From contig NC_088943.1 in assembly GCF_033473495.1 (NCBI RefSeq), positions 434,001-498,000 of the forward strand: a stretch of DNA of 64,000 nucleotides. Reading direction: 5' to 3'. The translations under genes were made by a program, and so were the position numbers. Source of the stretch: Cercospora beticola (taxonomy: Eukaryota; Ascomycota; Dothideomycetes; Mycosphaerellales; Mycosphaerellaceae). Shown in pieces: positions 9,453 through 60,723 of this stretch. Positions within the stretch are counted from its first letter, which is position 1, and each line of letters starts with the position of its first letter. The notes under the pieces were generated by a model that did no database searches, was not told the origin of the DNA, and saw nothing but the letters and a program-made list of their open reading frames with translations.

Positions 9453-12400
9453 TCACCACATCAAACTCCACCCCGCAACAATCACAGGCAACACACTAAC
9501 CACCTCTCCCAATCCCGCATACGCCGGCGGGATTCTGACCTTCACCAATGCCCCAGAAGCTAACAAGATGGCCAAGACATTATACACAGCCGACCAGACG
9601 AAGTTGAATACGATGCGTCTGAACGAACGCCTCGAGATATTAAGGAAAGATTCGATGCCGGTGAGAGGATGATGAGTGCCGAGGAGGGTGACGTCGCAGA
9701 CGGATTGTGTGACGGCGCTTGCAGTTCCGGAGGGAGAATTGGCGGAGGTGGTTGGAGAAGTGGAGGCGGCGATCTGCATTCCGACATTTGCTTGAGCGAC
9801 TGCGACTGCATCGTTTGTTCCGTCTCCGCAAAAGAGAACGATCCGATTTTCGCGTTGCAGGGCTTCGACGTATTCTTTCTTTTGTGCTGGGGTACATTGA
9901 GATCGAACGAGGAGCGGATCAATGCCGACTGCTGTGGCAATGGCGTGCACGGCTTTCTGGTTGTCGCCGCTGAGGATGTGGCACCGGAGGCGGCGAGCGG
10001 AAAGAGAGGCGATGACTGCCTGAGCTTCAGGTCGGAGAGTGCTTTGCAGACCGTAAGCGAGGATGAGCTTGTTGTCGATGGACATACAGAAAGCCGTGAG
10101 ACTCTTGTCCAGAATATTGATCACAGCTGGGTCATTGCTGGCTGCAAGCCACCGCGGGTTACCTGCTTGTACCTGACGGCCCTGCCAGGTGCAATGAATA
10201 CCAGATCCGGGCAGAGATTGCACGCCCTCCACTTTGACGGCGGGCGCGAGGTGATCCTGCAAATGTTTACTGATGGCGAACGAGACGGGATGATAGTTGT
10301 CCGTCACGAGAGCCTTCGCCAAGGCAACAATGAGGTCTTTCGAAATAACCGAAACAGGCTGCGAGTATTCATGCACAACAGCCAAATCAGCCAAAGTCAG
10401 AGTTCCAGTCTTGTCGAATACGACATCGGTCGTCTTGTAGCCTCGCTCCAATGCATCAACGCTTTTGATCGCAACACCAGAGCGAGCAGCAACGCCTCCG
10501 GCGATCACAAGGACCTGGGAGCAGTCAGTTGGAGGGCACCCGATACAATCACACCACCATAAATGCTTACCATCGGAACGGCGAGACCGAGCGCACAAGG
10601 ACAAGCTATCGCAAGCACAGCGATGGCATAAGTAATGGCTGTGCCAACAGCGCTGCCCCCAGTCTCATCGCGAACGGCCAGAGCGACGGCAACCCAGATG
10701 CCGAACGTGATCAACGAGATGGTGCAAACCACTGGGATGAACCACGAGGCCACCTTATCGGCGAGGTCCTGGACTCGCGGCTTGGCTCCAAGGGCATCCT
10801 GAACGAGATTTTTGATGTCCGAGATGCTGTTGGAATTTGGCAAACGCATGATTTTGACATCCAAGATGGTAGCGCCATTGATCGTGCCTGCGATGACTGC
10901 GTCGCCTTCCGATTTGGTGACAGGCTCGCTTTCTCCAGTGTACATCGATTCGTCCACGGCACCCGATCCACCGACGATGACACCATCTCTGCCCACAATC
11001 AGCGGAGGTTCAATAGGAGCGGAGAGATTGGGACTTACGTGACGATCGAAGTATGCGCCGGCACACGGATGAGGTCTCCGAACTGCAACAGTCGTGCATC
11101 AATCTCTTCCGTTCGTCCATCAGTGGTTAGCAGGAGAGCCGACTCGCGTTGCAGAGACGACATCGAGACAGCGGAGACAGCGCGCACGCGTGCCGCTGCA
11201 GCCATGAGTCGGCCTAACAGGACCAATGTAATCAGCAACGAGCTGGTCTCAAAGAAGGCCTCTTCCTCCAACTCGACCCCAGCCTCGGCAAGTGCGAAAG
11301 CAACAACAGAATACCCGTAGGCGGCCGTGATACTGATCACGATCAGCATGTCCATCTCCACAACCTTGCTGAAGACCAAAGACTTGAGAGCACCGACGTA
11401 GAATTCCGGGATGGCAACAGCCTGAACAAAGGTAGCGAGGACGAGGGAAATGATTTGGCGGGTCCGCTCCGGCACAGGATTGTCCGACCAAGACAGAACG
11501 ACCACGGGAATGGTGAAGATGGCGGAGACCAGAGTTGCCCATGCCATTGAAATGAGTCGCTTGCGGCCTTCAGAGTGTGCTGCGTCTGGTTCGGGAGGTG
11601 CCAGGTCCGCTCCATTTGGCATCACGCTGCGAGCGCCAGCGACTCGTGGATCGTATGTGATACGATACTTGTTCTTTCCTTTGACCTGCGCGACCATCAC
11701 ATCGTTAGTAGATAATTTTTCGGGTTGCGGACATTTAGTGCTCGCAGCAGCATACACGCACCTTTTCGAAAGATTCCAGCCCAAGGCGGTCCTCCCGCCC
11801 ATACGCTTCAGCGGCTTCCTTGCTGAGAAGTACGTCCAACGTTTGGAAATCAGCAGTAATCCGTCCCAGCTTGAAACCCGTCCGCTTCTCGATCAGCGGC
11901 AAAACTTCTTCCACAGAACCATGAGCAGGATCGAAATCGAACGCGGCCATGCCCGACACAAACGTGACATGAGGATTCGATATGCCTGGGATGTCGCCCA
12001 AGACATTGAGCATCTTTTTGCTGCAGCCGGTGCAAGTCATGCCAGTAACACTGAGCGCCACGTGGTCTTTCACTGGCGAGATCTCAATGTCTACGTCGGC
12101 AGACTTGTCTTTCACAGGGACACTCTTGACGACCGAAGTGACCTTGCATTTGTCGCCCACGGCGCAGGAGGTCTCTCCACATCCAGCCTTGGTGGGGACA
12201 CAGCAATCGTCCTCACAGCCGGCGGTAGATTTTGCCAAAGTCTTGGTGGCGGGCTCTTCGGACTGCTTGTGCGCGTTGCACGGCGAGCCTTCCTCGCAGC
12301 AGCAGCAGAAATCGAACTCCTCGATCATCTTGCGGCACAGGCATTGACCGAGACGCAGCAGGGCCTCGAAGCGCTGCATGGCCGACTGCAACTGATCCAG

Positions 12401-13496
12401 GCAGGCCGATGCGGTGTTGCTGGACGCATCTTCCTCGACCTCGTCACAGCAAGCATCAGAGCATTTGGACGCCTTTGTAGTGACTGCAGTGGACGTTTCG
12501 CAGCACGCGTTCTTGGGCTGATCCTTCTTGTCGCATGGCTTCTGAGCATCATTGTCTGCTCTGTCGGCACAGCATCCGCTCGCAGGAGTGCTCTTGATGT
12601 TGACTTCGGTGGATACCGTGCAAAAGTCCGACTTGCAGCCCATGTTCGACTGGTTGTTCAGCTTCTCATCGCAGCATGAAGCGTTCTTCGGACCTGCCTC
12701 AGCACCGCAGCATCCTCCCACGTCGCGAACTTTCTCCTTTGCCTGCTTTTCGGCGCCACAGCACGTTGTCTCGCAGCCCTTGTTCTGTGCCTTGTTGTTG
12801 ACCTTTCCGCCGCAGGACATGGCGTCGTTGCAGCCCGCTTTATCGCCACAGCAGCCACTCGCAGCGACAGCTTTTTTCTTCACCTCGTCCATTGGGCGAC
12901 AACCACCAGTCTCGCAAGTCGTGTCTACCTGATCGGTCTCTTCCTTGTCGCAGCAGCCATCGCCTTCACCATCACAGCTCTTCTTCACCGCCTCTTGACC
13001 TCCACAGCATCCGCCGGCAGCGACGACCTTCGTGTCATCCTTCTTCTCGTCACCGCAACATCCCGTCTCACAGCTCGTGTCCACCTTCTTCACCACTTCC
13101 TCCTCACCACAACCCTCACCACAACCCATCTCTTTCGCCGCCTCATTCTTCTTCACTTCCTGATCACCACCACACTTCACATCACCACAACATCCTCCGC
13201 TCTTTCCTCCATCTTGGCCTTCATTCGCAGTCAGTTCGTTATTGTCAATCTCCTTCAGATGTTTCGCAATCCGTTCCAAACAGCTCTCTATACCACCATA
13301 TCAGATTCACGTCGCGCATCTCTCATCCAGGAGCTGAGTCGGAAGAGGAAGAGGTGAAGGAGGAGAACTCACCATCACAACCCCTCCTACCTCTTACTCC
13401 CTTTCCCTTTCCTGATCTCTTCCTCACATTGCTGCCGCCGCCATTCCCAGCACAACTCGAAGACGTCTGAGGTGTGGAAGGGGAGGAACAAGGCAT
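9453..13496 (-). CDS. crpA: Copper-exporting P1B-type ATPase with Cys-rich tail (CrpA/PCA1-like)
   Basis: Heavy-metal P-type ATPase exporting copper (possibly cadmium) from the cytosol. Five exons, 13496-13373, 13287-11762, 11685-11039, 10988-10571 and 10514-9453, join in phase to 1,258 aa. The N-terminal tail (about residues 74-424) carries about 50 cysteines in some thirteen CC or CCCC clusters, mostly GCCG(D/A/G)-like repeats. One HMA domain with GMTCTGC follows (residues 457-463), then MYTGES (actuator), ACPCALG (membrane metal site), FDKTGTLT (phosphorylated Asp), NYHPVSFAI (HP motif) and GDGTNDAV. This layout matches fungal CrpA/PCA1 metal-resistance pumps rather than the Golgi pump Ccc2, which has no such tail. 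It sits next to a cluster of HxxHC proteins that may need metal; a functional link is unproven. Confidence 0.93.
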
Positions 13497-13959: not shown

Positions 13960-14230
13960 TCAGGCACGATGCACCGCCCGGACGAGGTCGGGATGCGTCC
14001 GCTTCCACTCTTGCGGCGCCATGGGGAGCCAACGGCGGAATGCCATGGCCGACAACTGCTCATAGTCCTTACACACATGTGTCACCCCCCCATCCGTGGG
14101 TCGCGTCGCTGTGTGCTCGGCCCGGGTCGGAGCCTTCGAGCGCCGTGTCCCCGCAGCACATGACCGCCTGGCGGAGGTAGTCAAAGCAGTGGAGGATGCG
14201 CTGCGGATCGCTCTTCTGCCACGTCACATG
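13960..14230 (-). pseudogene. UstYa/DUF3328-like C-terminal relic, frameshifted
   Basis: The minus strand encodes LHCFDYLRQAVMCCGD and then, in another frame, THVCKDYEQL, ending at 13960. Together they match in order the end of the intact UstYa-like gene at 17523-18518 (HCIQYIRQAIMCAAD ... GWGNTHVCRSWDSL). The frame breaks in a run of seven G on the minus strand (plus-strand C run 14085-14091), consistent with a one-base insertion or an assembly error there. The first His of the second HxxHC is Arg (RILHC), and I find no convincing first HxxHC or membrane exon upstream. It therefore looks like a decayed copy rather than a working gene. Confidence 0.65.
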
Positions 14231-14447
14231 GGTGGCGACGGGCGACACGGCACGAAGGGGAAGGTAATTCCTCTGGCACGGCTTCTGTGATGGCGGCATG
14301 ATGGCCGAGCGGGACTGCCCCTGGCCGTGCGGCGAGCTATGTACGCCGAAGTCACTCGCAGATCGGGGCATGGGTTGGTGGTGGACCAGACGTCACGCCG
14401 ATCGATGGTCTTGGACAGAAGCCACTCCCCCGCCACCATTGGTCGCC

Positions 14448-15203
14448 ATGCTTCACCATCACGTTCGCAATCTGGGAGTGCTGCCGGACGTCGTCGAAGA
14501 ATATGTAGAGAGCAAGCATCACAACGCCGACGTCGACACTGACGACCATCTTCCGGCTGCTCGCTACCCCCAAGACAAGCACTGGAAAGGCCGGCTCACG
14601 AAAGTCACACTTTGCGCACTTGCCGTGTGGGGCTCCGTCAACCTCATCTCGTCTCTATGGGACGCTCTTCGCGCTCATCCACAAGACCTGTCCTGCAGAT
14701 GCGGAAATTCCATTGCCGAAGCGAAGAAGAATCACTGTCGCTACGATCCTCTGCAGCTCGGCTGGCCGCCTCCACACTGTCGAGACGACGAGGTCACGGA
14801 CGCATTCCGTCGCGCCGCGCCCGCTGTCTTCGGTCACCGATGGCCGTACTACGAACGACAAGATGCGCACTCTCCCATTCTCGAGGAACACGATGTTGCA
14901 AATTTTGCAGACACCGGGCAAGTGTACTATACTGTGCATGCGCATCACTTGGCACACTGCATGCACATCTGGATGAAAGAGGCTCGAGTGCCGGAGAGCG
15001 GAATTGTAATGCCAAAGAGGTTCAGCGGCGACGGCCATGCGGAACACTGCGCCCGTGTGGCCATGATCAACAGTACGCTGGATGCCCTGGTCTCGGTTTC
15101 CAGCGTGTCTCTAGACTTGGATGCGCATTCCGAGCAGTCGAGGAAATTTCACGCTCTGAAGACTCTTCACGAAGATACTGACGAGCGGGGAGGGCACTTT
15201 TGA
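14448..15203 (+). CDS. Membrane protein with CxCG signature and two HxxHC motifs
   Basis: Intronless, 251 aa from the ATG at 14448. Earlier in-frame ATGs would only add a low-complexity leader. A single membrane span (VTLCALAVWGSVNLISSLW) is followed by a lumenal domain with CRCGNSIAEAKKNHC, a WPPPHC block and two HxxHC motifs, HLAHC and HAEHC. This signature belongs to a widespread ascomycete family of unknown function. The paired HxxHC resembles UstYa oxidases, though overall similarity to DUF3328 is not obvious. It is convergent with a truncated GT90 gene, and the last 93 bp of both coding frames overlap on opposite strands. Its role as an oxidase is inferred from motif and neighbours only. 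Confidence 0.75.
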   Translation: MLHHHVRNLGVLPDVVEEYVESKHHNADVDTDDHLPAARYPQDKHWKGRLTKVTLCALAVWGSVNLISSLWDALRAHPQDLSCRCGNSIAEAKKNHCRYDPLQLGWPPPHCRDDEVTDAFRRAAPAVFGHRWPYYERQDAHSPILEEHDVANFADTGQVYYTVHAHHLAHCMHIWMKEARVPESGIVMPKRFSGDGHAEHCARVAMINSTLDALVSVSSVSLDLDAHSEQSRKFHALKTLHEDTDERGGHF

Positions 15204-16493
15204 CGAGGCATCGAGATAAGAGCATCCCTGGTTGCTGCTTCGAAATGCATCGTCGCGACACCGAATGGTACTGAAGCCCGTGTCCATGTACTCTCGTGTG
15301 ACCTGGAGCTTTCGATCCGTGATCGGCATTCCTTTCTCAGCCCCGCCTTGCTGTTGCCCTTCTTTGATGCTGCTCAGGTAGGTGGCATTCGTCAAAGCAA
15401 CGAATCGATGGCGGTGGAAGCTCTGCCAGTTTTCGCGTCCGTGTCCACCTCCTGTATTGGCCCCTCTCCAAAACGCCTTGTTCGATTTTGCTTTCCACGG
15501 TGCCCGTCGCGAAGCATCAGCATGGTACCCAGGCTCTCGCGACCAGTAAATGGAGTCCGGATATCGTATGGCGGTTTCGATGCCTGCGACCTTGGCCGGT
15601 GAGAATAATGGCATGAGCTCCGTCGTGATGTTCAGACAATTCGGCCGTACCAAGGCCCCGTGCATCTGAAGCAACCGTGGCTGCGAATATACATCGCCCC
15701 AGCGCTGTGGGTCGTGTACCGCCGGATCCCCAAGGGCAGTGGCGTGCACGCCGATTGTCCTGGGCCGAACACTTTCGATAATAATCGCCCGTGACCCGTC
15801 GTCCCCTGGAAACATTGCCAAGCTTGAATTCCCCACGCAAGCGCGCTGCATGACCGCTAGTCGATCGTGCGGGATGGTGAAGAGCGGTGAGTCGTTCAGC
15901 CAGCGTAGGTTCTGATGGCCGTGTGCGGCCGTGCTAGTGTCTGCGAGGACACGGGGCGATGCATGCCCGTGGAACGGCAATACAAGATCCGGAAGCGTCT
16001 GCGCGATTCGTCCCAGCATGGCTTGCACCTGCAAGCATGGCAGATTGGCGGGCTCGCAAGTTCCGACAACGCTGCCATTTTGGATCACGTACCCATCAAT
16101 CAATGGAGATGACGTGGTGGCTATGATGTGGGCCATCACCCCAAGCTCGTGTGCCGAGTATTTCGAAAATGGGTCGAGATCCTCGTAAATGGGATCCCAG
16201 AAACTCTCCACGATCACAGCATCGTGCTGCACCGCAAGCCGATACCACTCCGCGAATCCTGGAGGTGGGCTTTGATGGCGTCGAAGCATGTATGCCTCCA
16301 CGGTCGTAGCCAACGTATCTGTGCGTGCTGATATCATCGCCGAGAACGATTTGTTTGCTCGTTCCATGAGCAGCTCGAAACGATCTAGCAAGACTCCCGT
16401 GGAGTTAGAGGGGTTGTGCTGCTTGGGAAAGTACAAGCGAAACGCCAAAGCTCCGGCGAGAGCCTGGGAAGCGTATCGCCACACTCGAATCAT
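15111..16493 (-). pseudogene. GT90 (CAP10-like) gene lacking its C-terminal catalytic part
   Basis: The ATG at 16493 opens a 460-aa frame with an N-terminal hydrophobic segment and the first two-thirds of a GT90 domain (PPGFAEWYRLAVQHD, FWRGANTGGGHGRENW, HRHRFVALTNA). The GT90 gene at 2259-4977 continues with a GRYYQLL...EWHDDRLVPW-type block. Here the frame instead ends about 30 residues after MDTGFSTIRC at a stop at 15111. No matching continuation is found on this strand, because that DNA is occupied by the opposite-strand HxxHC gene. It is probably a truncated pseudogene created by rearrangement; a shortened working protein is less likely. An extension to 16526 would need a TTG start. Confidence 0.7.
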
Positions 16494-17522
16494 AGTCTCG
16501 CAGTTGCAAATCGTGGATGTACCCAAACCGTTCCTGGGGAGTCGACAAGTAGTCCAATTCGCAGGAGGAACGCCGCGCCATCTGCGGAGGTATATGTGGG
16601 CCTTCCACCGGTGCGGCGTTCTACAACACCCGGTTCACGCATCAAGCCATGTCACTAATGTCTGTATAACGGCAAGAGTGGGAAGACATGGTGGCATTGT
16701 GGAAGCACAGCTGCCATGCAAGGTATTACGTGAAGTATAACTTGAAGTGGGTATTGCGTTCGAACCATTGGTCATCGAACCATTAGTCATCGCAATCAAT
16801 GGCGTGCCTGGGATATGATCATATGAGTCTATTCTGGAGCTCATGCGTCGTCTGCCATGCAGCGTGCATTATAGCCCTTGAACGCTGCGGCTGCACGACG
16901 GCAAGTCAAAGCTCGTAAAGCTTGTTCTATCAACAGCGCCGTTGTACATGATTCACGTTGCACATTGGCCTTGCTCGACATTGAATCATGTTGCGATTTG
17001 GATCTCACTCTAGAGGTGGATTGACCGGCAGAAAGGCAGAGAGAGGAATCCTGGATCAGGCGCCCTGGACGAAAGGCTGAAAGTCAAAATCTGGAATCAC
17101 TCATGCCTTCCAGCCGCATCCTGGTGGACGCAACGAGACCTGGTGGTATGCACGACAAGCTCAACTTTCGGTGCTCGAAGGTATGTGCCCGTTTATCGGA
17201 GCAAGTGTGGCGATCATCAGGCCCCGCCGACAGGAATGTCATCTTCGCTCGCGATGGAAGGTTCGCTCGGCGGCATCTGCAAGCTGTACGTTAGCTTTGA
17301 CCACGTGAAGAATGGGGATCGACGCTGAGGATTGTAAGTCATGGCGGCTGATCCGAGGTGTGCGGAAGCGTCTCGACGTAGAGAGGTGTCCATGTACGTG
17401 GCAGCATGCAATGCACAGACCCGCCCTCAAAAGCCTGTGCTACTACGACAACTTTGCCACCACTACTGCACAACATGTTTGGAGCGATACACGACAAGTA
17501 CACGCCCTCCTACACGAGCAAA
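16494..17522. other. Intergenic, about 1 kb
   Basis: It lies between two divergent genes (truncated GT90 and UstYa-like). No gene seen. In-frame ATGs at 17406 and 17475 could lengthen the downstream gene. Confidence 0.45.
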
Positions 17523-18518
17523 ATGTTCTCGAGCAATTCGAGATACGCGCGTCTACCGGAGGAGGAAGACGAAGAGTGCACGTCCCCAGAACCGGCCACC
17601 GGCACAGGAGCGAGTCTGTCACGTCGTCTGGTTCATGTATTGGGCTTCTGCTTTCAAGCACTGGTACTCCTCATTACGGTCTACGTGGCTGTGACACTGG
17701 CCTTGCGTCAAAGCGATTGCCATGCGTCTCGCACCGCAATGACCAACTCCTTTATTCCAGAATGTAAGCATGAGCCTACAAATGGCTGTGGAGCGATTCA
17801 AAGCTCGACCAAGACTGAAGTGATCACCAGATCTGCGACGCGGGCCCCAATTATTGGTGAAGTGGAACGACTACCCCGAATTCGACGGCGGCTCAAAGGC
17901 AGCCGATGATGCGTGGGACAGCCTCATGCCGCGTAAGTTGTGCTCAACTTGTCCTCGGGATATTTGACTAGCAAACGCTGACTGCGTCAACCGCTTGCTC
18001 AATAGGGGGACGAGGCTATATCGCAATACCTAATCCGGCGCAATACGGGCTCGGGCGAGGCAAGGACAGAGGCGATCCCGACGGCGACATATATGCCATA
18101 TCTGCATTCCATCAGATGCATTGTTTGGTGAGTACCAAACTGGCAATCTCCAGACAATAGGCTTTCTAAACTTGTGCAGGGCGTCATTCGAGAGGTCTTC
18201 CTGGCCCTTCGAAATGATTCTTCCAGCATCGACTTCTCTGCTGCAGTGCATGGTCATCCCCCTTTGGGCGACCATATCAACCACTGCATCCAGTATATAC
18301 GGCAGGCGATTATGTGCGCTGCCGATCCCACAATCGAGAGTCTTGCGGAAGATGTTGAGCAGGATGGGAGGGTTCGGGTGACCGATCTTGGGTGGGGCAA
18401 CACCCACGTTTGTCGCAGCTGGGACTCACTGAAGAACTATGCTGCTATGCACACGCATGCACGAGGCGGTGGTCTCGGCGCTAAGGAATATGTTGCAGAG
18501 GCTGTGCGGCTATCATGA
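17523..18518 (+). CDS. UstYa-like (DUF3328) oxidase, intact
   Basis: Four exons, 17523-17763, 17831-17932, 18006-18127 and 18180-18518, join in phase to 267 aa. Introns carry GTAAGC, GTAAGT and GTGAGT donors. The order is a cytosolic start with YARLPEEEDEE, one membrane span (LGFCFQALVLLITVYVAV), a lumenal WDSLMP/GYIAIPNPAQYGL block, then HQMHC and HINHC followed by YIRQAIMCAAD and GWGNTHVC. This is the full UstYa pattern. In ustiloxin, asperipin and phomopsin pathways such proteins oxidatively cyclise or modify the core peptide. It lies 2 kb from a repeat-containing precursor gene, which supports that role. The start is uncertain: ATGs at 17406 and 17475 are also in frame. Confidence 0.87.
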
Positions 18519-18902: not shown

Positions 18903-19854
18903 CTAGATGGCTGTATTTACCTCCTCTGGGGTCAGCGGAGCTACCCTTGGGATCTCTCCAGTGTCACGCCAGTGCTGCATCGCTTCGTTGAACATTTTGC
19001 GTCGCTCTACCAGCCACTCATCTGGTTGCAGCAATGATCCTCCGGCAGCATCCCGGATAGCTGCATCTCTTGCGCGTTGTTCGTCCGTCATGGGATGCAT
19101 GTGATCTCCCGGCTGCGGAACCACATAGAGGATGCGTGCATCCGTCGACACATCGTTCTCGAGATAGAAATCATGGAGAGGTTTCCTGCTGCGGCATTGA
19201 CGCTGCGACGCATGATCTGGGTAGGGTCGTGGGAAGCCGTCAAGCCACTTGTAGTTGTAGACGTCCCAGCTCACATGGCAGGAGATGTAGTCATACAGTG
19301 CCCACAGACAGTGCTCCCCGTGGCCTTTCACCAGCGGAGTGACACCGCCTTGTTCGGTAGCGTTGATCTTGTAATCGATTGGATTTAGCATGGCGTGGAG
19401 GACGTGGATACAATGCATCTGATGCGTGAAGTCGAGGCGTGCTGGATAGATCTTATCGCCATAGCCCCAGTCCTCTCCGATGTGAGCATATTTGGTCGGA
19501 TCTTTGCCTATACGTTTCATGTCCTCTGCTGACAAGAGGAATATCTTGTTGTGGCCGAAATACTGGTGGTAGAAGGCCTCACGTTCGAGGCCTAGAGCAA
19601 GTCTCCAGGGGTGCTCTTGAAGGTGAGGATCCGCTTCGCGCACCTGTGGCGTTTCCGTGAAGTGGCTGAACGATTTGCTTGCATCGGTAGTCTGGAGAAG
19701 ATCGCGGATTATCGAAGGCACTCCTCATAATTAGTCAAAGTCGAAAGCGGACACATGGCTACTTACGGATTGTTATAGAATCGTAGTTCCAGCTTATGGG
19801 CGTAGCAGCACTTCTGATTGTATACCTAGCGATGAAGAAAGCCGAGCAGGCCAT
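18903..19854 (-). CDS. UstYa/DUF3328-like protein with damaged N-terminus
   Basis: Exon 2 (19720 or 19723 down to 18903) encodes DFTHQMHCIHVLHAML and HGEHCLWALYDYI, the two HxxHC motifs of UstYa proteins, plus an unusually long acidic C-terminal tail. It joins in phase to exon 1 through an intron with a GTAAGT donor (19766) and a GACTAAT branch site. Exon 1 reads back in the same frame through a membrane-span-like segment to KWRPLSNDEED, typical of the cytosolic start of this family. But a TAG stop (19938-19936) interrupts it, and no ATG precedes that part. The only usable ATG is 19854, which would give about 302 aa with a shortened anchor. It may be a recent pseudogene or a protein with reduced membrane targeting. 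Confidence 0.68.
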
Positions 19855-20536: not shown

Positions 20537-20956
20537 ATGCAATTTCGATCTCTCCTTCTCTCTACCTTCGCGGTTCTTGCGTGGACTGCTCCAGCAAAGG
20601 ACGAAGAACGTGGAATCTCCAACGAGCGTAAGATCCTAATTGAGCTCGTCCTTTGCCAGGCCAAAGGCTAAAGCTAAGACATTGTAGTAGGGATGGCATA
20701 CAAAGACCGCAACTACGAACAAAGACCCCGTGGGCCTTCGGAAGCTCAGGTCAATGCCATCCACGCTAGACAGGGCTATCCTGATGGTTACTACGAGGAC
20801 GAAGCTTACGTCCCGCCAAGGTCCAAGAGGGATGAAGTCGAAGAAGCCGAGGTCAAGGCTATTCGCGCCAGGCAGGGTTATCCCGATGGCTACTACGAGG
20901 ACGAGGCTTATGTCCCGCCGAAAGCCAAGAGGGTCGCCACCGAGGATGACATGTAA
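20537..20956 (+). CDS. Kex2-processed repeat precursor, candidate dikaritin-type RiPP
   Basis: Two exons (20537-20627 and 20688-20956; the second acceptor could be 3 bp later) give about 119 aa. A signal peptide (MQFRSLLLSTFAVLAWTAPA) leads into two 34-residue units. Each holds an identical core, RQGYPDGYYEDEAYVPP, at about residues 58-74 and 92-108, and each ends in a dibasic site (RSKR, KAKR) followed by an acidic linker. A short VATEDDM tail closes the protein. Signal peptide, tandem cores and KR sites are the hallmarks of UstA/AprA-type precursors, and UstYa-like genes lie on its upstream side. The likely product is a tyrosine-rich peptide of about 15-17 residues, cross-linked after export. 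Core borders other than the Kex2 side are not known. It is too short and repetitive for most gene callers. Confidence 0.85.
20768..20818 (+). repeat. Core repeat unit 1 of the precursor
   Basis: Encodes RQGYPDGYYEDEAYVPP. Its spacing to the second copy is 102 bp. It differs from unit 2 at seven third-codon positions with no amino-acid change. Confidence 0.9.
20870..20920 (+). repeat. Core repeat unit 2 of the precursor
   Basis: Encodes the same 17 residues as unit 1, followed by KAKR instead of RSKR. Confidence 0.9.
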
Positions 20957-21421: not shown

Positions 21422-23475
21422 ATGGCTTTTTGCCACACTTTGTGGTCTGCAGTGCTCCTCTACTTTGCATTCTTCCATATTTCGAGCGCTGTCGCAGATC
21501 CTGCAAGAGAGAATTTCGACTTCGTCATAGTTGGCGGAGGAACAGCTGGACTTGTCGTGGCGAGTCGCCTTGCAGAGCATCGTAATTTTTCTGTGCTAGT
21601 GATCGAGTACGGCACCCACGAAAAGGACTCATCGATGTCAACACCAGGCCTTTTCAACAAGATCCCGAGTTCGCGATATATCAATGTAACTTCCGTCCCT
21701 CAGCAACATCTACAAGGACAGACGTATCCCGTCGTTGTGGGAGGCACTCTCGGCGGTATGATCCCTACCAAGATCGTGAACCGCGAACTTCTTCACTCAC
21801 ACCTCGTAGGAGGGAGCTCCGTCAATCGTCTCTTCTTCTCGAGAGGAAGTCAGTCTGATTATGATGCCTGGGAAAGCTTGGGTAATAAGAACTGGTCGTG
21901 GCACGCTCTCGAACCGCAAGTCTCACCTCCATTGGTCTACTTAGCACAGATCTCATGTCCCTGTGTTTCTCCACTGACCTTGATGCGCAGTTACTTCTTG
22001 AAGAGCACCAACTTCACTCCCCCATATGAGAGGGCTAGGGATATCTGGAATTTCACCTGGGACGAACGGGCTTGGGGCAATGCCGGTCCGATACATGTCA
22101 CTTTCCCGCCTTTTCAATGGGAAACATTCTCGAGCTTCAGAAATGCCTTTGCTGAAGTGACAGGAATCGTGAATGGTGCTCCGATTCCACATCCCATTGA
22201 CGGTAATACTGGTTCGGCGGTCGGAGCACTTTGGGTCCCGGCCAGTCAGGACGGCGAAGAGCAGACTCGTAGTTCTGTCGTGACTGGTTACTACGAGGTG
22301 GCTCGCCGTGCATCTAATTTCAAGCTGATGCTCGACACCAAGGTGACAAGGGTCGTGTTTGAGGATAAAGTAGCCGTCGGTGTGGAAGTCTCGGATCGCC
22401 AGACAAAACGCATGACAATGATCAACGCCAGGAAGGAGATCACCCTCGCAGCGGGAGCGATTAACACTCCGAATATCTTGCAAAGGTCAGGCGTTGGGTT
22501 GAAAAGTATGCTGGAAGAGGCGAAGGTGGGTGTGGGAAATCAGTGCAACAATCCAGAGGACAACTAACATATGAGCAGATCACAGTAGTCCATGAGCTAC
22601 CCGGTGTGGGTATGAACTTCCAGGACACGCCCACAATGGTGTCCGTCTACGACCTGACCAGAGAAACCACGCTACAGAGACTCTGGACGGATATGGGAAA
22701 GAACGCAACGGCTCGCATTCGCAAGCAGTTTGAGCACGAGTATTCCGTCAGCCGTTCTGGGCCTTTGACCATGGCTCAAGCTAGCTTTGCGGCTTTTCTG
22801 GCACTTCCACACGTCACAGCCCGATGGAATGCCACAGTGATGAGCATACAAGCGCAAGACCCGTTCGCAAATTTGCCCTCGCTCTACGCCCCAAGCGTGA
22901 GAGAGGGATATCAGCACCAGCGCAAGATCATTCTTGACCATCTGAAGAGCACCGTAAGCGCAGCTTTTGAATTTCCGGTCAACGGTCGAACGGATCCCTT
23001 CCAAGGACTTCTGCTGAAACCTCTGTCCCGGGGAACTGTGACGCTGAACACCTCAGATCCCGATTTGGGGCCATTGGTGGACTACAGAGCGCTCGCCGAT
23101 CCAGGCGATAGAATGCTCATCGCTCACATGATGGATTTTACCAGGGCTCTGATGAGTACTGCAACGCTGCAACATGAGCTCCGCCCAGTAGCAGTACCAG
23201 AACCATCAGAAGACAGCGATTCGATGATCGACACCGCAATCAGGGAGCGAACGCTCTCACCATCCTGCTCTCATCAGTGTGGGACCTGTGCAATGCTCCC
23301 ATTGCATTTGGGTGGCGTGGTCGACGATCAGCTCATGGTGTACGGCGTCAGCGGACTAAGCATCGTCGATTCGAGTATCTTGCCTATGCTTCCTGGTGCA
23401 AGGCTGGGGAGCACAGTGTTTGCGGTTGCCGAGAAAGCTGCGGACATCATTTTGCTGAGGCATCGGACTGGGTAG
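21422..23475 (+). CDS. Secreted GMC oxidoreductase (FAD), altered active site
   Basis: Three exons, 21422-21915, 21991-22525 and 22579-23475, give 641 aa. A signal peptide (ending ISSAVA) is followed by FVIVGGGTAGLVVASRLAE, the FAD-binding start, and by VGGSSVNRLFFSRGS, the second GMC signature. The first intron begins with GC (GCAAGT...CAG); only this junction restores the conserved EPYFLKSTNF reading. The second is GTGGGT...CAG with a CTAAC branch. Near the C-terminus, SHQCGTCAM keeps the first catalytic His (codon 23272). The second catalytic His/Asn, expected in a GHLxST- or AHLQ-type block, is Arg (PGARLGST, codon 23401). Classical alcohol oxidation may therefore be altered. It is placed just after the RiPP precursor in the same direction; a tailoring role is inferred. 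Confidence 0.9.
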
Positions 23476-25299: not shown

Positions 25300-26399
25300 A
25301 TGGGTGGCCGCATTGGATTGCAAGGAACGGTCAGTACCACGGGGTCACCGGACTTCGTCACGAGGGGTACGGTCTGTGCGACACTCTCCGTACTGATTGC
25401 TCTCGTCTTCTTGACCACCGACATGTCGTCACCGAACCCCTTGAAGCAGCAGGTCGAGGACGTGCATGAATGGTTCCGAGCGGGAGCTACAACGTCTGGA
25501 GTGAACATCATGCAAACCTCGACCGAGAGTTCGCCGTCTCTGGCTGACCACTACACCGACGGCTGCCCCGAGCATCGTCCCCAAAGCCGACTCATCTCGA
25601 TGGACCCGCTGATGATCTACGTTGAACAACTACTCACGCGGGACGAGGCTGCCCACGTACTGCGCATGGCAGAACCCCACTACAAGCCATCAGCAGTCGT
25701 ACAGCCTGACGGCAAAAAGTACGACAGCGACTTCCGGAAATCCGTCTCGGCGAGAATCCCCTACGACCCGGTTGTGGCATGTATCCGCAAACGCGTTGCC
25801 GACTTTCAAGCTTTCACGCCCGTGGAGAATGTGGAAGAAATCTTCGTCGTCAAGTACGGCATGGAGGACCACATCCAACACCATTTGGATTGGCATGAAG
25901 CATTGATCAACCCTCGAGTGACGACATTCTTCGTGTACGTGGCATGCGATGATGGTATGGGAGGACAGTGTCAGGGAGGCGAGGTACGTTCCCCTAGTGT
26001 GACTACAGGTGGTCGAAGTGATTTGCTCCATCGATCCGATGCTGACCCGCGCCCCAGACCAACTTTCCCAACTGGCCCGGAGAGACGGCTTCGGAATGGT
26101 GTGAGCGCGGATTGGTGAACTGCGAAGCGCGATTCCCAGGGATCAGTTTCCGTCCGATCGTGGGCAACGCAGTCTTTTGGAACAATTATCACTCCAATGG
26201 TACCGGCATTGAGACGACCTTGCACGCTGGTCTGCCGGTGACGAAGGGCACCAAGGCGGGTTTGAATGTCTGGACCAGAAAACACAAAGCCTCGAACACG
26301 GATGTGCTCAAAGTACATGACAGAAGTCAACTATCGGACAAGGACAGAGCTTCGTGTGACGCGGAGTCGCAGACTGGCCCCTGTTATGTCAGAGTCTGA
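25300..26399 (+). CDS. Prolyl 4-hydroxylase-like 2OG-Fe(II) dioxygenase
   Basis: Two exons, 25300-25983 and 26058-26399 (GTACGT...CCCAG intron with a GCTGAC branch), give 341 aa. A single N-terminal membrane span (VCATLSVLIALVFL) makes it a type II secretory-pathway enzyme. The catalytic domain has the iron ligands H195 and D197 (HHLDW) and distal H284 (TLHAG), and the 2-oxoglutarate-binding K294 (GTKAGLNVW), all expected for the P4H alpha family. It hydroxylates proline or another residue in the secretory route. The two core repeats of the nearby precursor each contain three prolines, so core hydroxylation is plausible but inferred. Housekeeping protein modification is the alternative. Confidence 0.88.
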
Positions 26400-27186: not shown

Positions 27187-28809
27187 CTACTCCCTCCACC
27201 TAAACCTCGGATGCTTCCAATCCAAATCCTCAATCTCCCTCCTCCCCATCCCCTCCAACTCCTGCTCCGGAACCTGATGCTCCCTCGCCCTCTTCCCATT
27301 ATCCCATCGAATCCAAAACCACAACGCAATACTCAAAATCAAAATCGTACTGCTCGTCGCCAAATTCAATCCGTTACCAATCGGGTAATTAGGTCCATCA
27401 AACGGCAAAAACGCCCACGTAGAAATCAGACCTCCGACATTACCCAACATGACGTTTGTGCCGATGGCGGAAGAGCGTGCGGTATCGGTGACGACGTTGG
27501 CGGAGACTTGAGCGTTGCAGAGAGAGCCGAAGGAGAAGGCGCCGATGGCGATGATGAAGATTGCGCCGTAGCGGACTTCGCCGTCGGTGGAGGCGAGGAA
27601 CATTATGTAGCCGATCATCATGAGGGGGGCGGAGCCGATGAAGTAGACGACGCGGCGGTCGGTTTTGCCGCTGAAGTAGGGGATGACGAGAGTGGCGACT
27701 GCACCGACGATGTATGGAGGTACGGTGCGGAGTTGCTGCTGCACGACGGTCTTGCCGGGGTAGATGGTTCGGACGATGGTAGGGGCGAAGAAGGCGAGGC
27801 CTTGGACGGTGATGTTGTCGAGGAGGAAGATGAGGGATGTGGCCAGGACGACGGGGTTGAAGATTCCAAGGAGAATCTTCTTGGTGTCGATCTTGTCGAG
27901 GACTTCCGTGCTGCCGACGCGTTCGGAGCGAATACGTGCCTCGGCGAGGGCCTTTTCCTCGGGAGTGAGCCATCGAGCAGTGGCAGGGCGGTCGGTGAGG
28001 GTGATGAACGCGATGAGAGAGATGCCGATGGTGATGACACCTTCGATGGCGAAGATCATGCGCCAGCTACGGAGAGTGCCAAAGCTGTCGAGTGTGAGAA
28101 TGGCTGACGCGAGGAGACCACCGAACGCTCCGGCGAGCGGAGCCATGACAATGTACAGCGCCAGACGAAAGGCGAGCTCGGTGCGGCGATACCATCGAGA
28201 GAGGTAGTACGCGATTCCGGGAAGCATGCCAGCTTCGAACAGGCCGAGTACGAAACGCACACCTGCGATCTGCGCCCTATCGTGTGTGAAAGCGCATGCC
28301 ACAGAGGCAGCGCCAAAGCCGAGCGAGATGGATGGGATGAACCATCCTGGGCCAAAGTACTTGCAGGCGAGATTGGAGGGAATTTCGAACACAATGTAGC
28401 TGATGTAGAAGGTGGTGAGGACGAAGTTGTAGTCGTAGCCCGTCAGACCGAGGTCCTTCTCCAAACCAGCCAGACGTGCATTGCCTGGTGCCGTGGTCAG
28501 CATGCATATTTCAGAGAAAGGATCGAGATGAGGTAGACTCACCGATATTCGCGCGATCGATGAAGCAAAAGAGGTAAAGCAAGGCCACGGTGGGCACAAT
28601 GCACAAATCGATCTTTCTGCGCAACCTCTTCTCGGCTGCGGGATCCAGAAGCACCTCGGGCGTGGTCTCGCTGCTGAAACAGTGTCAGAGTCAAGGTGTA
28701 ATCGCTGATCCACGGTCGAGTGAACTTACTGCCCTGACCCTACATCAGATCCATTGTGCTCTGCGACGCGACCCGTCTTCTCGTCCCCTCCGCTGGGGAT
28801 GGAAATCAT
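27187..28809 (-). CDS. MFS transporter, allantoate permease (Dal5-like) family
   Basis: Three exons, 28809-28730, 28673-28543 and 28484-27187, give 502 aa with 12 predicted membrane spans. The first span region PTVALLYLFCFIDRANIGNARLAG type (split by an intron after ANIG) and SRWYRRTELAFRLALY are typical of anion:cation symporters of the Dal5/Tna1 type, which import organic acids, vitamins or allantoate-like compounds at the plasma membrane. The substrate cannot be told from sequence. It lies next to the putative RiPP locus in opposite orientation. It might be unrelated, as efflux pumps for secondary metabolites normally come from other MFS branches. Confidence 0.9.
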
Positions 28810-42878: not shown

Positions 42879-45220
42879 CTAGATCTTCAACTCCCTCACC
42901 GCCGCCTCAATCGTCTCCTGGCCCCCAGGCCTCGAAGCCGGCCCCCTCAAAATATTCGGATACTCCGAACTAATCCTCTTCCAATCCACCTCTGTCCACA
43001 CATTCTTCCCAAAAAACTCCAACATCCTCTCCACACTCTCCGGAAGTTTCACACCCATCTCCAACGCCGTCCGATGCAACATCCGATTAATCCCTCTCGG
43101 TAGCATCAAATGCATGCTAAAAGCCAAAAGACATCGACAGCAATCTTCAAACGCAGCAATGACTTCTGGGGCGTGAAGGCAGCGTTTGCTGGGATCCTTG
43201 TCGCGATCCATACATCGGAGGAGGATTGAAGCCACCATGGCGGCGACTTGAAAGAGGAAGGGGGGAGTTTGTTTGTAGCCGTAGTGTTGGCGGTAGTCTC
43301 GGAGGATTGCGGTGCTTTGGATCGCGTAGCGGAGGGTACGTGAGCGGACTGCGTCTCGTTCGACTTTGTCGAAGTAAATGCTGGCTTCGCTGAGGAGGAC
43401 TTCGGCCCAGTGGTCGTTGAGCATCATTTGCGCGACGAAGTATTGGGCGCTGTGGACGTGTCAGCCACGCATTCGTGCCGATCCATCATACTCATGCAAA
43501 CATACTGGAATTCGTACAGAGGTGTCGGCATTTTAGGCGTGTAATGGAGTGGAGCCGGTAGGTACTGATACCAATACCGCATTCTCGATTCCAATTCCCT
43601 GACACCTTTCCAAAAGGCCGGCTGCGTGAGATCTCGATCTTCGGCGCAGACGTCGTGGAGTATTTCCCACAAGAACGCACTCAGAGACTGGTTCTCCAGG
43701 GCCATCAGGTTCATGTGCATCGGGATGGGATCTTGCCGGGAACAAGGATACGGCCGCCAAAGCATCACTTCATCCTTCAAGATATGCCTGAGGTCGGGCG
43801 CGTTTTTGGCACAGACAATTTCGTTTCCGGACTTGCCGAATAGTCCCATGATCCAGTACCTGCCATGCGGTCAGTGGAGGTCGCGAGTTCGTAGACAGTT
43901 TTTCTCACATGTGATTTCGAACGACACATGATGCGATGCAGGCGCGAGCTCTTTTGTATGCCCGTGTGGCCTGCGCGTCCATGTCGCACGGGATCTCTGA
44001 GCTGTTCAAGTCTTTGATCATGCGCGCCAGATCTTGGTGAAGCGACCATCCAAGCCGATCTTGGCCACGCCACGAGGATCTGGTTAGCCCGTCAATGGCA
44101 ACGCTGGGCACCGTGTGCAGCAGACTGAAAACCTACTCTCCAGATAGGATCGATAATGCCTGAGCATTCGTGATTGACACCCGGCCCTTCTCCAACTCCC
44201 ACAATCGAAGAGCCTCTTTGTGGTAGTGTTCACCCCGGGTGAGATAGTCGTGGTCGTATGTGAAAGCCTCGTCGTGCTCAGAAAATAGCTACAGATCGTC
44301 AGTGTTACTAAACAAGAGGTGTAATGGTCAGTCATAGCTACCGAGCCACATGCGAGAACTGCATGAACGAGCAGCGGCGAACAGAAATGACTGTGCTGAT
44401 CACGAGATCGCATGTCTGCCAGGAACAGATCGGGTTCTAGATGCCTAGCAAATGGATTGGTCACAGAAAGATACGTGGAGACCAAATCCGAGACGCCGTC
44501 ATCAGTGCTGCTGCTGCTGCTGACCCATGGCGATGCAGGAACGCGGTGAATCGGTACTGACTTGCGTTGATCTCTGGGGTCATGCCCGTTCGTACGCGGC
44601 TCCTTGGAGGATTGTGGAGTCTCAGTCAGCATGCCGTTGGTGACTGGCAGTCTTCCAGTGATTTCCTCGAGCTTGATAACGCGGCTCCGGAGTGATCTCA
44701 GGGCATCAGGCGCGGGCATTTGGTGGAGTCCGAGAGAGTTGTTGAAGATATGCTCCGCAACGGCTACGATATCCTTGAGTGGGGCTGTCGGCTGCGCGAG
44801 TGAAATGAAAAGCTGCCCATAGACCCGCTGCTCATACATGAAGTTGTGCGCTTGTTGGATATCGTGGTGATGCCCGAGAACGCCGCGGATGGACTGGCCC
44901 GCTCGCACTCGACGTAGAATGTCAAAGGCTTGGTCTTGGTCGGCCGTCATGAGCAGATTATGGAGCTCCATGACGGGCTCCGTGGCCTGCAGCATTTCAT
45001 CGTGCTTCCGCTTGATGGCTTGCCTTCGGGTCTCGTTTTCTTGTGTGATCCAGACACATTCTACACCGGCGGCGGCACAGGAAGCGCAAGGCCTCTCTCC
45101 GCCGCATTTGGTCTTCCGCACGCGACATCGTTGACACGCCGCCGCGGCCTGTTGGCGTTTGGCGCGGCCAAAGGCGTGGAGCAGGACGTCGCTGGCCGCC
45201 GAATCTGCTCGATCCCCCAT
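42879..45220 (-). CDS. Zn(II)2Cys6 transcription factor with fungal-specific TF domain
   Basis: Nuclear DNA-binding regulator of 708 aa in five exons: 45220-44342, 44288-44137, 44079-43909, 43859-43506 and 43449-42879, all in phase. The N-terminus holds the binuclear zinc cluster CQRCRVRKTKCGGERPCASC...C. It is followed by a linker, the NPFARHLEPDLFLADM block and the middle homology region (for example DRLGWSLHQDLARMI). The first donor (GTAGCT) is weak. It lies just downstream of a paralogous regulator (45687-48012) in the same direction, so the two probably arose by tandem duplication. The target genes are unknown; the neighbouring transporter is a candidate. Confidence 0.9.
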
Positions 45221-45686
45221 GTGCTTGCTTTCTGGCCCGGTTCCGATCGGATCACTTGGCTTGATTTTGGCGGGAGATGCAGAGCGATTCCAGCATGCTT
45301 ATGAGATACGTCTGGCGCCCACGCGACGCCACGGAGCTGCGAGTTGTGCAGTTGTGCACAGGGCTGAAATGCGGCAATCAAAGTCAATGTGTCGGAAGTC
45401 CACTCCCGAACGCTGTGAAGACCGCATTTCTCCGTGCCAAGACCTGGAAGCCAGGATCCTGAGGGTCTCGATGGCGAAAATCTGCGTCGTCATCGGGACT
45501 GGGGACGTTCCTGCAGAAGCAACGAGATGTTGGGTGGCAAGAGAAGTGGGGAATGTCGCGGCAACAGAGCGGATGCAGGACAGGTGTCGGAGTCTGGACG
45601 CTTTCCTATCGGACTTATGTCCGGCGTCCATGAGAACAACTCCGACTCAAGCCAACCGTATCTGGACGCAAGCACTCGTAAAAGCC
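45221..45686. promoter_or_regulatory. Spacer between the two regulators
   Basis: Promoter region of the first regulator and 3' flank of the second. No other feature seen. Confidence 0.4.
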
Positions 45687-51469: not shown

Positions 51470-54400
51470 CTATTCTGGCCGAACTGCGAGAATAGTAGCT
51501 AGAAATTGCGAAAGCAGCTCCGAGGCACTTCTCGCAGAGAGGAAAGTCGTCTTGTATTCCACCACGACAGAAGCAGTCCTCTCGATGCTTGTGATCTTCG
51601 CTGAAACGGCATACTACAAGATGTCAGTAAACTGGTCGCAATTTTGGTCGCTTGAACTTGTTTTATTACCTCATTCGGATCTTCTCCTCCGATGTCTTCG
51701 AACACAAGACTGGGAGCGCTATCACCGCCACGCTTGACATCCTCGCTTGGACCCACCTGCTGGTAATTGAAGACCGAATCGAAGAGATGGCCACATTTGA
51801 TCTCGTGTTGGATTTCCGCCAGAGAGCAATACTGAAAATCGAGATCTTCAATCATCTGTCTGCGGACTGCCCTGGCCAGCTGGAGGAGGGTCGCGTGTCC
51901 GCTCACGTCGACTCGACATGTGAGCAGATTCGCATAGGCGCCGATGGATCGTTCGATACCGGGGACGGGCAAATCGCGGCCTGCACGAAGGTATCCGAAA
52001 CATACGTCGGCGCTGTGAGTGTATTGATGCAGCATTTGAGCCCAGGCGGATTGGAATAGACTGCTGAGGGTGATGTCGTTCTCGCGACAAAACTGTTCGA
52101 GCCGGGTGTAATCTGTTTCGCTGATTCCTGCATACACCGTCTTCGTGACTGAGCTCGTGGTGTGGGGTGCATCGACGGCTGGAAAATGGCATGGGGACGA
52201 GTCGTTCAACTTTGTCTTCCAATAGTCCAACTGATGAGCTTTATCCATCTTATCAAGCAATTGAGCAAATGCACGCGCGGTGTCGATGAGTTCTAAGTGT
52301 CGTTCGAGGTCAGGCTTGTCGTACGCTCGTTGCCACTCTTCGAGCAGGATCGCGACAGAGGCCCCATCGGTAATTGCGTGGCTCATCTGGAACTGACAGA
52401 TGATCAGACTAGGATCATTCGCGAGCTTGCACAGCAGCAGCCGATGTGGCGGACGCAATGGACTCTGGCCTTCAAGCGAACGCTCGCTTTGCAGCCATTG
52501 TCGCGCTGCAGTCTCAGTAGCCTTCTCCGCAGTGACCACTGTAGCGTGAACGCCTTTCAGAATGATCTGGTGGAACGAGGCAACCGGGTCTGTGTTCTCC
52601 ACAAAGACTGCTCGAAGCGAGGGTTGTGAGTCCACCACGACCTGCCACGCTCGCTCCAGGTCATTCGGCCGCACTGGCAGACCAGATTTCGACGACACGC
52701 GATACGTCTGCGTCGAATTGTATAGTGATGGATCTCTCATCTGGCTTATCAACATGCCGGACACCATGGGCGCGCACGTGACAATGTCCTGCACAGTACA
52801 GTCCTGGTTCGCTCGGCAAATGTCAGGCAGCACAGAGCTTTGCAGATGGTCCAGCTCATCATATGTCAGGCGAGCATTACTGAGATCACTCAAGGTGAGC
52901 TGAGGCTTCGCATCGGCAAGAGTGGTACAGATGTCGGTGAGTGTTGGGACCAGTTGATTCGCCCACTCACGTATCTCCGCTTGTCTTGTGAGGGCTCGAT
53001 TGAAACTAAAGCTGAACGCCGCCTCACCCTTGGTCACGGAAGCAAGTATGACAATGAGGGAGGATGCCGGAAATTCGCCCTGCGCATCCGCACAGTCCAA
53101 GTTAATCGACTGGAGCAACGAGTCCGAGGATTCGAGCTCTTGGAACTGACCCATATAATTGAATTCCACCTCCATGGTCGAGTTGTGTGATTTGAAGGCA
53201 AGTCGGCCGTCTTCATTGAAAAACCGTGCGGCGAAATACTGCCAGCCATTCGCGGGAAGTCGTCTCCTCATGTCTTTGACATGTCTAACCACGCTATGCA
53301 CCGTCTCCGCATCGTGACGCTCGGTAGTCAGGGGCGCCATGGTCGTGAACCATCCAACGGTGCGTGACAAGTCAATATTCTCGTTCCACGGCTCACGACC
53401 ATGTGCTTCGGTGAACATACTGAAAGAATCGCGCTCTGGAAAGATGCGGAAAAAGGCAAGCCACACTGCCGCTTGGAGAAGATCGACAGGGCTGGTACTG
53501 AGCGCAGCGTTGGCAGAGGAGAGCAAGAGTTTGGTGATGTCGCGCCCAATCAAAATGTCCAGCTCTTCGTGGTCTTCATTCTTGTTGGACGTCACGCCAT
53601 CATTGAACCCCCAAAACGATAGCTCGTTCTTGACCGCGGGTGTTGGTAGCACAGTCTTTGCGTCACTGAATATGCTCGACTTCGCCCGGTCCTGCTGTGC
53701 CTCGTTCCACAGCATGAACGAAGTCCCACTCGCTGGAGAAGTCGCATTCGTCAGCCGGTTTTCGAGGTCTCCGGCAATGATGCGCCACGAGACCAAGTCT
53801 ACCACGAGGTGATGCGCGAGCATGATGAGGATCTGGCTGCCGTCTGGAAAATCACACAGCTGCGCGATGAACACTGGGCCATGTTCGATATCCAATGTGT
53901 ATTGTAGTCCTGTTGCCAAATATTCGGCCGCCGCCATATCTGGCACCGTGGACGACATGAACTTGTGAAGAGGCTCCGCTTTGGCATCTGCTGCGGGCAA
54001 GTACTGTACCCAATTACCGGACTCTCGACGAAATCGTGCACGCAACATGGCGTGGTCAGCCACCAGTGCCGACAATGCGTCTGATACTGCCTGAGGTTCG
54101 CAGAAGCACGTAAGCCTTACGGCAAGGTGCTGCAAATACCCGTTGTACACAGATGGTTCAAGTTTGTTTTTGTCGACTTCGGCGAAGAAGATCTGCTGGA
54201 TAGGAGAGCACGCGTAGGAGAAGTCAGTCATTGGTTGGCCGGCCACTTCTGTGCCACTTTCAACGCTCACTTGGGCCTGGTCTGCCAATACCGCAATGCT
54301 TTCGCTCTTCAGGATCTGAGTGACTGTGACCTGGATATCGTCCTCGCGACAGCGTGGTGCCAATCGCATCGCTGAAATGGAGTCGCCTCCGTTTGCCACA

Positions 54401-59634: not shown

Positions 59635-60723
59635 CGTGGGCAGCTCTATTGAGAGATAAGCGGATTGCGCGGGAGCAGCGTGAATTTGTGGTCCAAAGAG
59701 GTATCGGCATTGTGACAGCGCTGCACGACGATCTCTGGCGGTTGACAACCTTCTTTGGTCCCACAATGAGCTCCTGGGTATTATCACTCACAGGCCCGGT
59801 TCCTGCATTGTCCCGAAAAGGTTTAAACTCGACGCTGCGTGCGAAGTGGGATGACCTAAGAGGTTGGGAATGTGACGTGTCTCATTAGCTCAGCGTCTAC
59901 TTGGCTCGTATATGCAGCTGCGAGTCTATAACCTCTGCTTTTTGTTACTGCTGAGTTTGCTGGTCCGTTGTTGTGACCAGCGGTGTCAGCAACGATCAGC
60001 TTGCCCATTGGGTCGGAAGTGCCTCCGCGGTTGCGATCTGCCATTCTCCACCGTGACGATGCGCAAGACATCGGCCAACTTCGAGCTTTACCGTTTATGG
60101 CCGACTCCAGGCGGAGGGCAGATTGACAACTGGTCTTTCCTCAACAAAAATGCGGCAACACCTGTGACTTTCGAGACCAAAGGATACATGTTGATGTGCT
60201 TATCCGCTGTCAGAAATCGAGACCTGCTTCCAGTTTTGCTCGATCGCCAGTATGCCTAGAAAGCGTCAAACCACTTCCACGGCAAATATCTCAAATGGGA
60301 ACTCGAACGAAGGTCGTTATGTTATTGCGACAAATGAAGGTGCTGGCAGCGAAGCTGTTTTCATCGTCCGTGGAAAGTCTAGAGTTGAAGTCTTTGTGAA
60401 CCCTGATTCCGTTGATTCAAACAGATGGTAGGCAGTGGATGTACGCTATGACTGCGCATGTGTTTGCAGCTGGAGTATTGTGGCCACAGTCGTCGAACTC
60501 GAGAAATCTTGTGATTGCGAACGGCGGCTGTATGGGATACCCTGAGTTTTGTTACAATCATGTGCCTGGTGCTTAGTCGATCTCCCGGCGTACCAATCGC
60601 AGCAGAAATGGCGGCTGGTGCTCAACCCAAGTAGTGTGTTCGTACCGTGCCTGCTTTAAGTGCGAGAAACTGCACGAGACGCAGCGGACGTGGTGAGATC
60701 ACAGGACCCTCGACGCAAGGTGA
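59635..60723. promoter_or_regulatory. NRPS upstream region, about 1.1 kb
   Basis: Promoter of the NRPS and 3' flank of the regulator. The frame upstream of 59634 stays open to 59787 but lacks an ATG. No other gene recognised. Confidence 0.45.

Follow-up and report, generated by a model that had tools for sequence, protein, structure and literature searches.

The stretch of DNA analysed here, 64 kb long and referred to below as the window, comes from Cercospora beticola, the leaf-spot fungus of sugar beet. At 20537-20956 on the plus strand it carries a two-exon gene for a candidate peptide precursor. In brief, exon 1 (20537-20627) opens with the ATG at 20537 and encodes a hydrophobic N-terminus, a probable secretion signal, exon 2 (20688-20956) encodes two repeat units and ends with the stop codon TAA at 20954-20956, and a GT...AG intron (20628-20687) lies between them. 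Joining 20537-20627 and 20688-20956 gives a protein of 119 aa that is identical to the deposited C. beticola protein P0001 / CB0940_10901. The latter is annotated as a hypothetical protein of 119 aa and its model, which is a gene prediction, implies the same intron as the one proposed in an earlier note on this DNA. An alternative acceptor 3 bases further on, with exon 2 starting at 20691, is likewise in frame.

The best 11-residue hydropathy mean at the N-terminus is 2.14, against at most -0.05 in segments starting past residue 30. When the protein was shuffled 100,000 times, 0.1% of the shuffled sequences reached this peak, a figure that measures hydropathy alone and is not a signal-peptide prediction.

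Repeat units and the conserved block

Exon 2 contains two directly adjoining units of 34 codons each, 102 nt apart and in register. Unit 1 is located at 20732-20833 with a KR at 20825-20830, and unit 2 at 20834-20935 with a KR at 20927-20932. Two 34-residue units are what the earlier note had described. It had also described an identical stretch of 17 residues; the stretch is indeed shared between the units, but codon comparison shows that it is 18 residues long, ARQGYPDGYYEDEAYVPP. This block, rich in tyrosine and proline, is predicted to hold the core and spans codons 12-29 in both units (20765-20818 and 20867-20920). It ends in EDEAYVPP and does not contain Ile, and in the second unit YVPP stands before KAKR. 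An acidic linker had been proposed after the KR of each unit. We found the KR in both, but the acidic linker, DEVEEAEV, only after the first; the second is followed just by the tail VATEDDM.

The two copies of the block differ in 8 codons, with 8 synonymous and 0 nonsynonymous differences, whereas the flanks, that is the other 16 codons of the unit, differ in 12 codons, 3 of them synonymously and 9 nonsynonymously (block against flanks, Fisher p = 0.0014). Within the 17-residue stretch 7 of 7 nucleotide differences are synonymous, and when 7 substitutions were placed there randomly the protein was kept in 8 of 400,000 trials. The synonymous-only differences and the random-placement trials indicate that the copies have been diverging for some time while the peptide was held constant. 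The block peptide is under selection and the flanks are not, and this conservation between the copies is the best evidence that the precursor peptide matters. Two copies cannot mark the ends of the core, since recognition stretches may be constrained too. A chance repeat was also considered, and is ruled out by the synonymous-only differences in the block, the 8 of 400,000 trials and the Fisher test.

A search of the protein collection for precursor homologues gave a sole match at E <= 10, one cluster of 52 candidates scored, and this was the entry of the precursor itself. The matched cluster has 3 member sequences at 90%, and the named C. beticola member is the one that was compared. This absence of homologues is weak evidence, since the search needs shared 5-residue words. 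Searching the C. beticola genome for sequence encoding the block revealed no place besides the gene at 20537-20956, and a literature search by locus tag (CB0940_10899 to 10902) gave nothing.

Genes surrounding the precursor

Proteins of the UstYa family carry two HxxHC motifs. Two genes encoding both motifs are located within 3.1 kb upstream of the precursor, 0.7 and 2.0 kb away. UstYa gene 1 (18903-19854, minus strand; PF11807 E 1.3e-21, relatives and reading frames) is the nearest and is divergent from the precursor. It encodes HQMHC and HGEHC, and its catalytic part at 18903-19723 is intact as judged by PF11807. UstYa gene 2 (17475-18518, plus strand; PF11807 E 4.9e-25) has four exons placed by inspection and encodes 283 aa with HQMHC, HINHC and, by eye, a hydrophobic anchor; a sequence search against solved structures matched none. 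The earlier note had made its reading depend on a UstYa gene near the precursor, and these two genes are present.

On the minus strand between 19723 and 20140 we did not find an in-frame ATG in UstYa gene 1 ahead of its hydrophobic segment, and an in-frame TAG is located upstream. The deposited protein P0002, encoded on another contig and 98% identical, starts at the internal Met of this gene. Relatives of UstYa gene 1 were found in metagenomes and in Dothistroma septosporum (49%), the latter with a longer N-terminus than the internal-Met start would give. A third UstYa match at 14069-14392 (minus strand; PF11807 E 5.5e-7) consists of the C-terminal part alone, with RILHC as its second motif, and is probably a relic.

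Next to this fragment, at 14448-15203 on the plus strand, lies a gene whose protein matches no Pfam family; it carries one CxCG and two HxxHC motifs and, judged by eye, a hydrophobic segment. None of the 4 members of this CxCG family scanned matched PF11807/UstYa, and a profile comparison of the CxCG and UstYa families gave a weak result (probability 12%, E 0.0024, 47 columns). A family search of the C. beticola genome found five places, the one in the window and C4:739172, C4:722179, C5:292614 and C5:846469. Each of the five has a UstYa match at a distance of less than 10 kb, and so have the four outside the window taken by themselves, two of which belong to one cluster on C4. A sixth look-alike ORF, C5:847313-848356, was seen in a stretch fetched for its UstYa gene.

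Downstream of the precursor, a GMC oxidoreductase is encoded at 21422-23475 (plus strand; GMC_oxred_N E 2.8e-25, GMC_oxred_C E 1.9e-27). Its N-terminus is hydrophobic by eye and both domain-bearing frames are open; the exon-intron limits are approximate. It is followed at 25300-26399 (plus strand) by a gene for a prolyl 4-hydroxylase (P4H) of 341 aa with exons at 25300-25983 and 26058-26399, which the earlier note did not mention in its account of the locus. Prolyl 4-hydroxylases are marked by a 2OG-Fe(II) domain with an HxD...H motif and a 2OG-binding Lys. The P4H of the window matches PF13640 above the Pfam cut-off (E 2.8e-6), and residues H195, D197, H284 and K294 do not vary among the 6 sequences aligned, these being the query and 5 of its 8 matches, with 3 partial or weak matches left out. 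Among solved structures the closest are prolyl 4-hydroxylases (best E 3.2e-23). The N-terminal part contains a segment that is hydrophobic by eye and is a probable ER anchor, and orthologues are present in C. kikuchii (91% identical) and C. berteroae (87-93% identical). The gene models of the precursor, UstYa gene 2 and the P4H are without internal stops.

Two further genes are only possible members of the cluster. One encodes an MFS transporter, a possible exporter (27187-28725, minus strand; PF07690 E 5.2e-33), the other a GT90-like protein with a weak match (15111-16634, minus strand; PF05686 E 0.0064, 15.9 bits against a cut-off of 24). Neither a tyrosinase nor an S41 peptidase match was found in the 64-kb window. 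Elsewhere in the window, an open frame of 2,762 residues at 51502-59787 (minus strand) encodes an NRPS with condensation, AMP-binding and carrier domains, and Zn2-Cys6 and Fungal_trans regulators are located alongside it at 44087-45298 and 60994-62433. At 9456-13300 (minus strand) an open frame that is Cys-rich by eye, an HMA (PCA1) domain and a HAD hydrolase domain lie one after another and are probably the pieces of a heavy-metal P-type ATPase.

A second P4H cluster and other repeat ORFs

The C. beticola genome has 63 UstYa matches at 34 loci, and 2.0% of the genome is within 10 kb of one. The P4H of the window has one close paralogue in the genome (56%), located at C4:735538 and within 1.6 kb of a UstYa match. 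The next P4H match (36%) is 214 kb from any UstYa match. The independent count of P4H genes near UstYa is thus 1 of 1, since the member in the window was picked by the finding itself.

The paralogue is part of a second cluster at about 722-740 kb of C4 (genome G000), which also encodes three UstYa genes, a CxCG protein and a Kex2-repeat precursor. This C4 precursor (L044:3313-5124, that is C4:726812-728623, minus strand) has 603 residues, a hydrophobic start, 30 copies of QYVWSP and 29 KR, and YVWSP stands before KAAxKR. The two clusters share the P4H subfamily, UstYa genes, the double-HxxHC protein with CxCG motif and a Kex2-repeat precursor; they differ in that the C4 cluster has three UstYa genes and 30 short repeats, whereas the precursor in the window has two long ones. 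Apart from itself, UstYa gene 1 gave one match in the genome (E 9.5e-4), and the C4 cluster contains nothing closely related to it, so that the two clusters do not share this gene. What they have in common is the P4H, the CxCG family and UstYa genes that fall in a different branch from UstYa gene 1. The missing C4 relative speaks against a full shared origin of the clusters. In a metagenome, relatives of UstYa (P0004, 54%) and of the P4H (P0012, 59%) from the same source are each encoded on a contig of 9,448 bases, probably one and the same contig.

Seven other KR-repeat ORFs are located within 2.7 kb of UstYa matches, at loci L018, L020, L024, L025, L029, L031 and L044. The repeat scan covered 23 of the 34 UstYa loci including the window and, in addition to these, stretches shorter than 4 kb of L002 and L005, which gave no match. 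Other frames of the same repeats, the other L024 repeats, the ORFs of L010 and L011 (other proteins), the L023 repeats lacking KR and a 39-aa ORF at L007/L030 were left uncounted. The frame of the L024 ORF is only putative. The ORF at L018 has just two units, ESYQWASDGGYVSFY, and the repeats are PYFLGRTWTPPEAAENT at L020, AYKFFSDGPYGGPIKEV at L025, TIYGAGSAFPFGY at L029 and EVPYEVGLTYADYG at L031. At L021:3290-4144 (minus strand), an ORF that starts with a hydrophobic stretch and has AQAYGNEKALR repeats lacking KR is located 0.6 kb from a UstYa match.

One survey sorted 7,878 repeat proteins into 838 types and 2,560 stand-alone proteins (PMC7329392). The diversity reported there, together with the seven further KR-repeat ORFs found here, means that a core unlike any known one is what most such precursors have: new cores are the rule in this class.

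Interpretation and comparison with known systems

We suggest that the gene at 20537-20956 is likely to encode the precursor of a dikaritin-type RiPP, from which C. beticola probably makes an undescribed modified peptide. The proposed route follows what is described for the class (PMC10512285, PMC9233826, PMC7329392), with the P4H added. The precursor protein would enter the ER, where a secretory P4H may hydroxylate at least one core proline (in YP or VPP); that the P4H acts on the precursor peptide we infer from gene neighbourhood alone. By analogy with the class, Kex2 would cut after each KR, exopeptidases would trim the ends of the released peptide, and the core would be oxidised by the UstYa enzymes, which most likely join the side chain of a Tyr to a neighbouring residue. 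The resulting product would be a cyclic, Hyp-containing peptide drawn from GYPDGYYEDEAYVPP, and probably carries hydroxyproline. The earlier note had called the gene a Kex2-processed RiPP precursor. What we found is a repeat precursor with Kex2 sites in a UstYa-bearing cluster, for which processing is predicted.

The dikaritin reading is based on selection on the block, on two UstYa genes with paired HxxHC motifs and on an intact P4H. It draws further on the small part of the genome (2.0%) that is near a UstYa match, on the location of the only close P4H paralogue in a second UstYa cluster, on P0004 and P0012 being probably on one contig, and on the presence of orthologous P4H genes in C. kikuchii and C. 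berteroae. Against it stand the presence of only two repeats, the lack of a precursor homologue beyond its own entry, the lack of a clear start in UstYa gene 1 and the absence of tyrosinase and S41 peptidase matches in the window.

The extent of the product may be smaller than the block. The precursor could be that of a dikaritin whose product is only the end of the block, AYVPP or YVPP, the rest being a conserved recognition stretch; the peptide would then be nearer the phomopsin type than a new four-Tyr scaffold. EDEAYVPP recalls the EDYXI core of ustiloxins and phomopsins (PMC6339444), and the four-Tyr scaffold may for this reason exceed the true product, although the likeness is by eye and without statistics. 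YVIP cores are noted in three genera in PMC7329392, and YVWSP before KAAxKR in the C4 precursor parallels YVPP before KAKR in unit 2. We consider this short product rather unlikely, as conservation between the copies is uniform over the 18 residues of the block, and the known dikaritins, as described in PMC9233826, link Tyr to an internal Ile, which the block does not contain. A long core of 15 to 18 residues with four Tyr and a short C-terminal YVPP core may both be candidates. The core that the earlier note called new is thus unmatched elsewhere in the protein collection, but such newness is usual in the class and the four-Tyr scaffold may be more than the product.

Two other explanations do without a cyclic product. 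The peptide released by Kex2 could be a linear secreted signal, unmodified or only hydroxylated, that acts on the fungus itself (pheromone-like) or on the plant (as a Hyp-peptide mimic), with UstYa genes that belong elsewhere. The acidic residues and Pro around Tyr and the nearby P4H suit a small secreted signal, and in one survey 78% of the Kex2-repeat proteins lacked a DUF3328 gene within their 15 closest neighbours. The UstYa genes are, however, only 0.7 and 2.0 kb away, a type of neighbour lacking in almost all pheromone-type precursors, with three exceptions (PMC7329392), and the dipeptides after KR are DE and VA, where pheromone precursors have EA or DA (PMC6339444); we regard a linear signal as quite improbable. 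An alpha-type pheromone precursor in the proper sense is ruled out by these dipeptides and by the UstYa neighbours. The cluster might also be decaying, with an intact precursor but a mature product that is no longer made, the start of UstYa gene 1 lost and the third UstYa copy fragmentary. The lack of an in-frame ATG before the hydrophobic segment in UstYa gene 1, the in-frame TAG upstream, the start of P0002 at the same internal Met, the longer N-terminus of the Dothistroma relative and the fragment at 14069-14392 agree with decay. On the other hand, UstYa gene 2, the P4H and the precursor are free of stops in their models, the GMC domain frames are open, UstYa gene 1 retains an intact catalytic part, the block is under selection, and the start of UstYa gene 1 could be accounted for by an upstream exon that went undetected. 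Decay appears improbable.

Under the dikaritin reading, the P4H is the least usual part of the cluster. Among the matches listed in a search of the fungal RiPP literature no main text named a prolyl 4-hydroxylase, supplements and most subscription journals being outside its scope, and a hydroxyproline search listed nothing but a plant-peptide review. Hydroxylations are also attributed to UstYa-type proteins (PMC12048977), so that a mass shift of +16 Da alone would not prove a P4H step. Should the P4H be part of the pathway, hydroxyproline would be an expected modification in the class and a simple mass tag. We tentatively propose that the P4H link makes the cluster a variant within the dikaritin-type RiPPs. 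More broadly, and as a speculation that we hold somewhat short of likely, the two clusters could represent a sub-kind of fungal RiPP in which a dedicated secretory P4H, UstYa enzymes and the CxCG double-HxxHC family act on Tyr-Val...Pro cores to give cyclic Hyp peptides, present in Cercospora at least and probably in another fungus (the metagenome contig).

A 2022 review counts only five dikaritin-type products (PMC10512285), and one survey reports 1,758 candidates for precursors that have a DUF3328 gene nearby. The host of the precursor described here is a plant pathogen with 34 UstYa loci. Surveys of Kex2-processed repeat proteins (PMC7329392; PMC6339444) describe proteins that have a signal, as the precursor probably does, and, like it, repeats of at least 8 residues between Kex2 sites; a DUF3328 gene is nearby in 22% of the survey cases. 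Both surveys demand at least three repeats, so the precursor, with two, falls below their line and outside their strict definition. It does fall within the looser definition of PMC9632046, a DUF3328 gene near a precursor with a signal peptide and one or more repeats, 10 residues or longer, that kexin sites separate: two UstYa genes are located within 3.1 kb, the two units share 18 identical residues with a KR in each, and the signal peptide is judged by hydropathy. The precursor suggests that two-repeat precursors, left out by both surveys, can be real. The same search logic yielded nine DUF3328 clusters in Venturia inaequalis, likewise a Dothideomycete leaf pathogen, where 4 of 10 putative precursors peak in mid-late infection (PMC9632046); the C. 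beticola precursor is known from sequence alone.

The cluster differs from the known dikaritins in its new core, in having only two repeats and in the presence of a P4H and a GMC oxidoreductase. To our knowledge, no known dikaritin cluster contains a P4H. It differs from the ustiloxin cluster in lacking tyrosinase and S41 peptidase matches in the window. The mean number of repeats is about five, and more repeats raise the yield of ustiloxin (PMC10512285). The dikaritins compared here are ustiloxin, phomopsin, asperipin-2a and victorin, with epichloecyclin counted among them or as a sister class. Features of the class (PMC10512285) that the precursor shares are a block that is repeated, KR sites, core Tyr residues and adjoining UstYa/DUF3328 genes, and it has a probable secretion signal as well.
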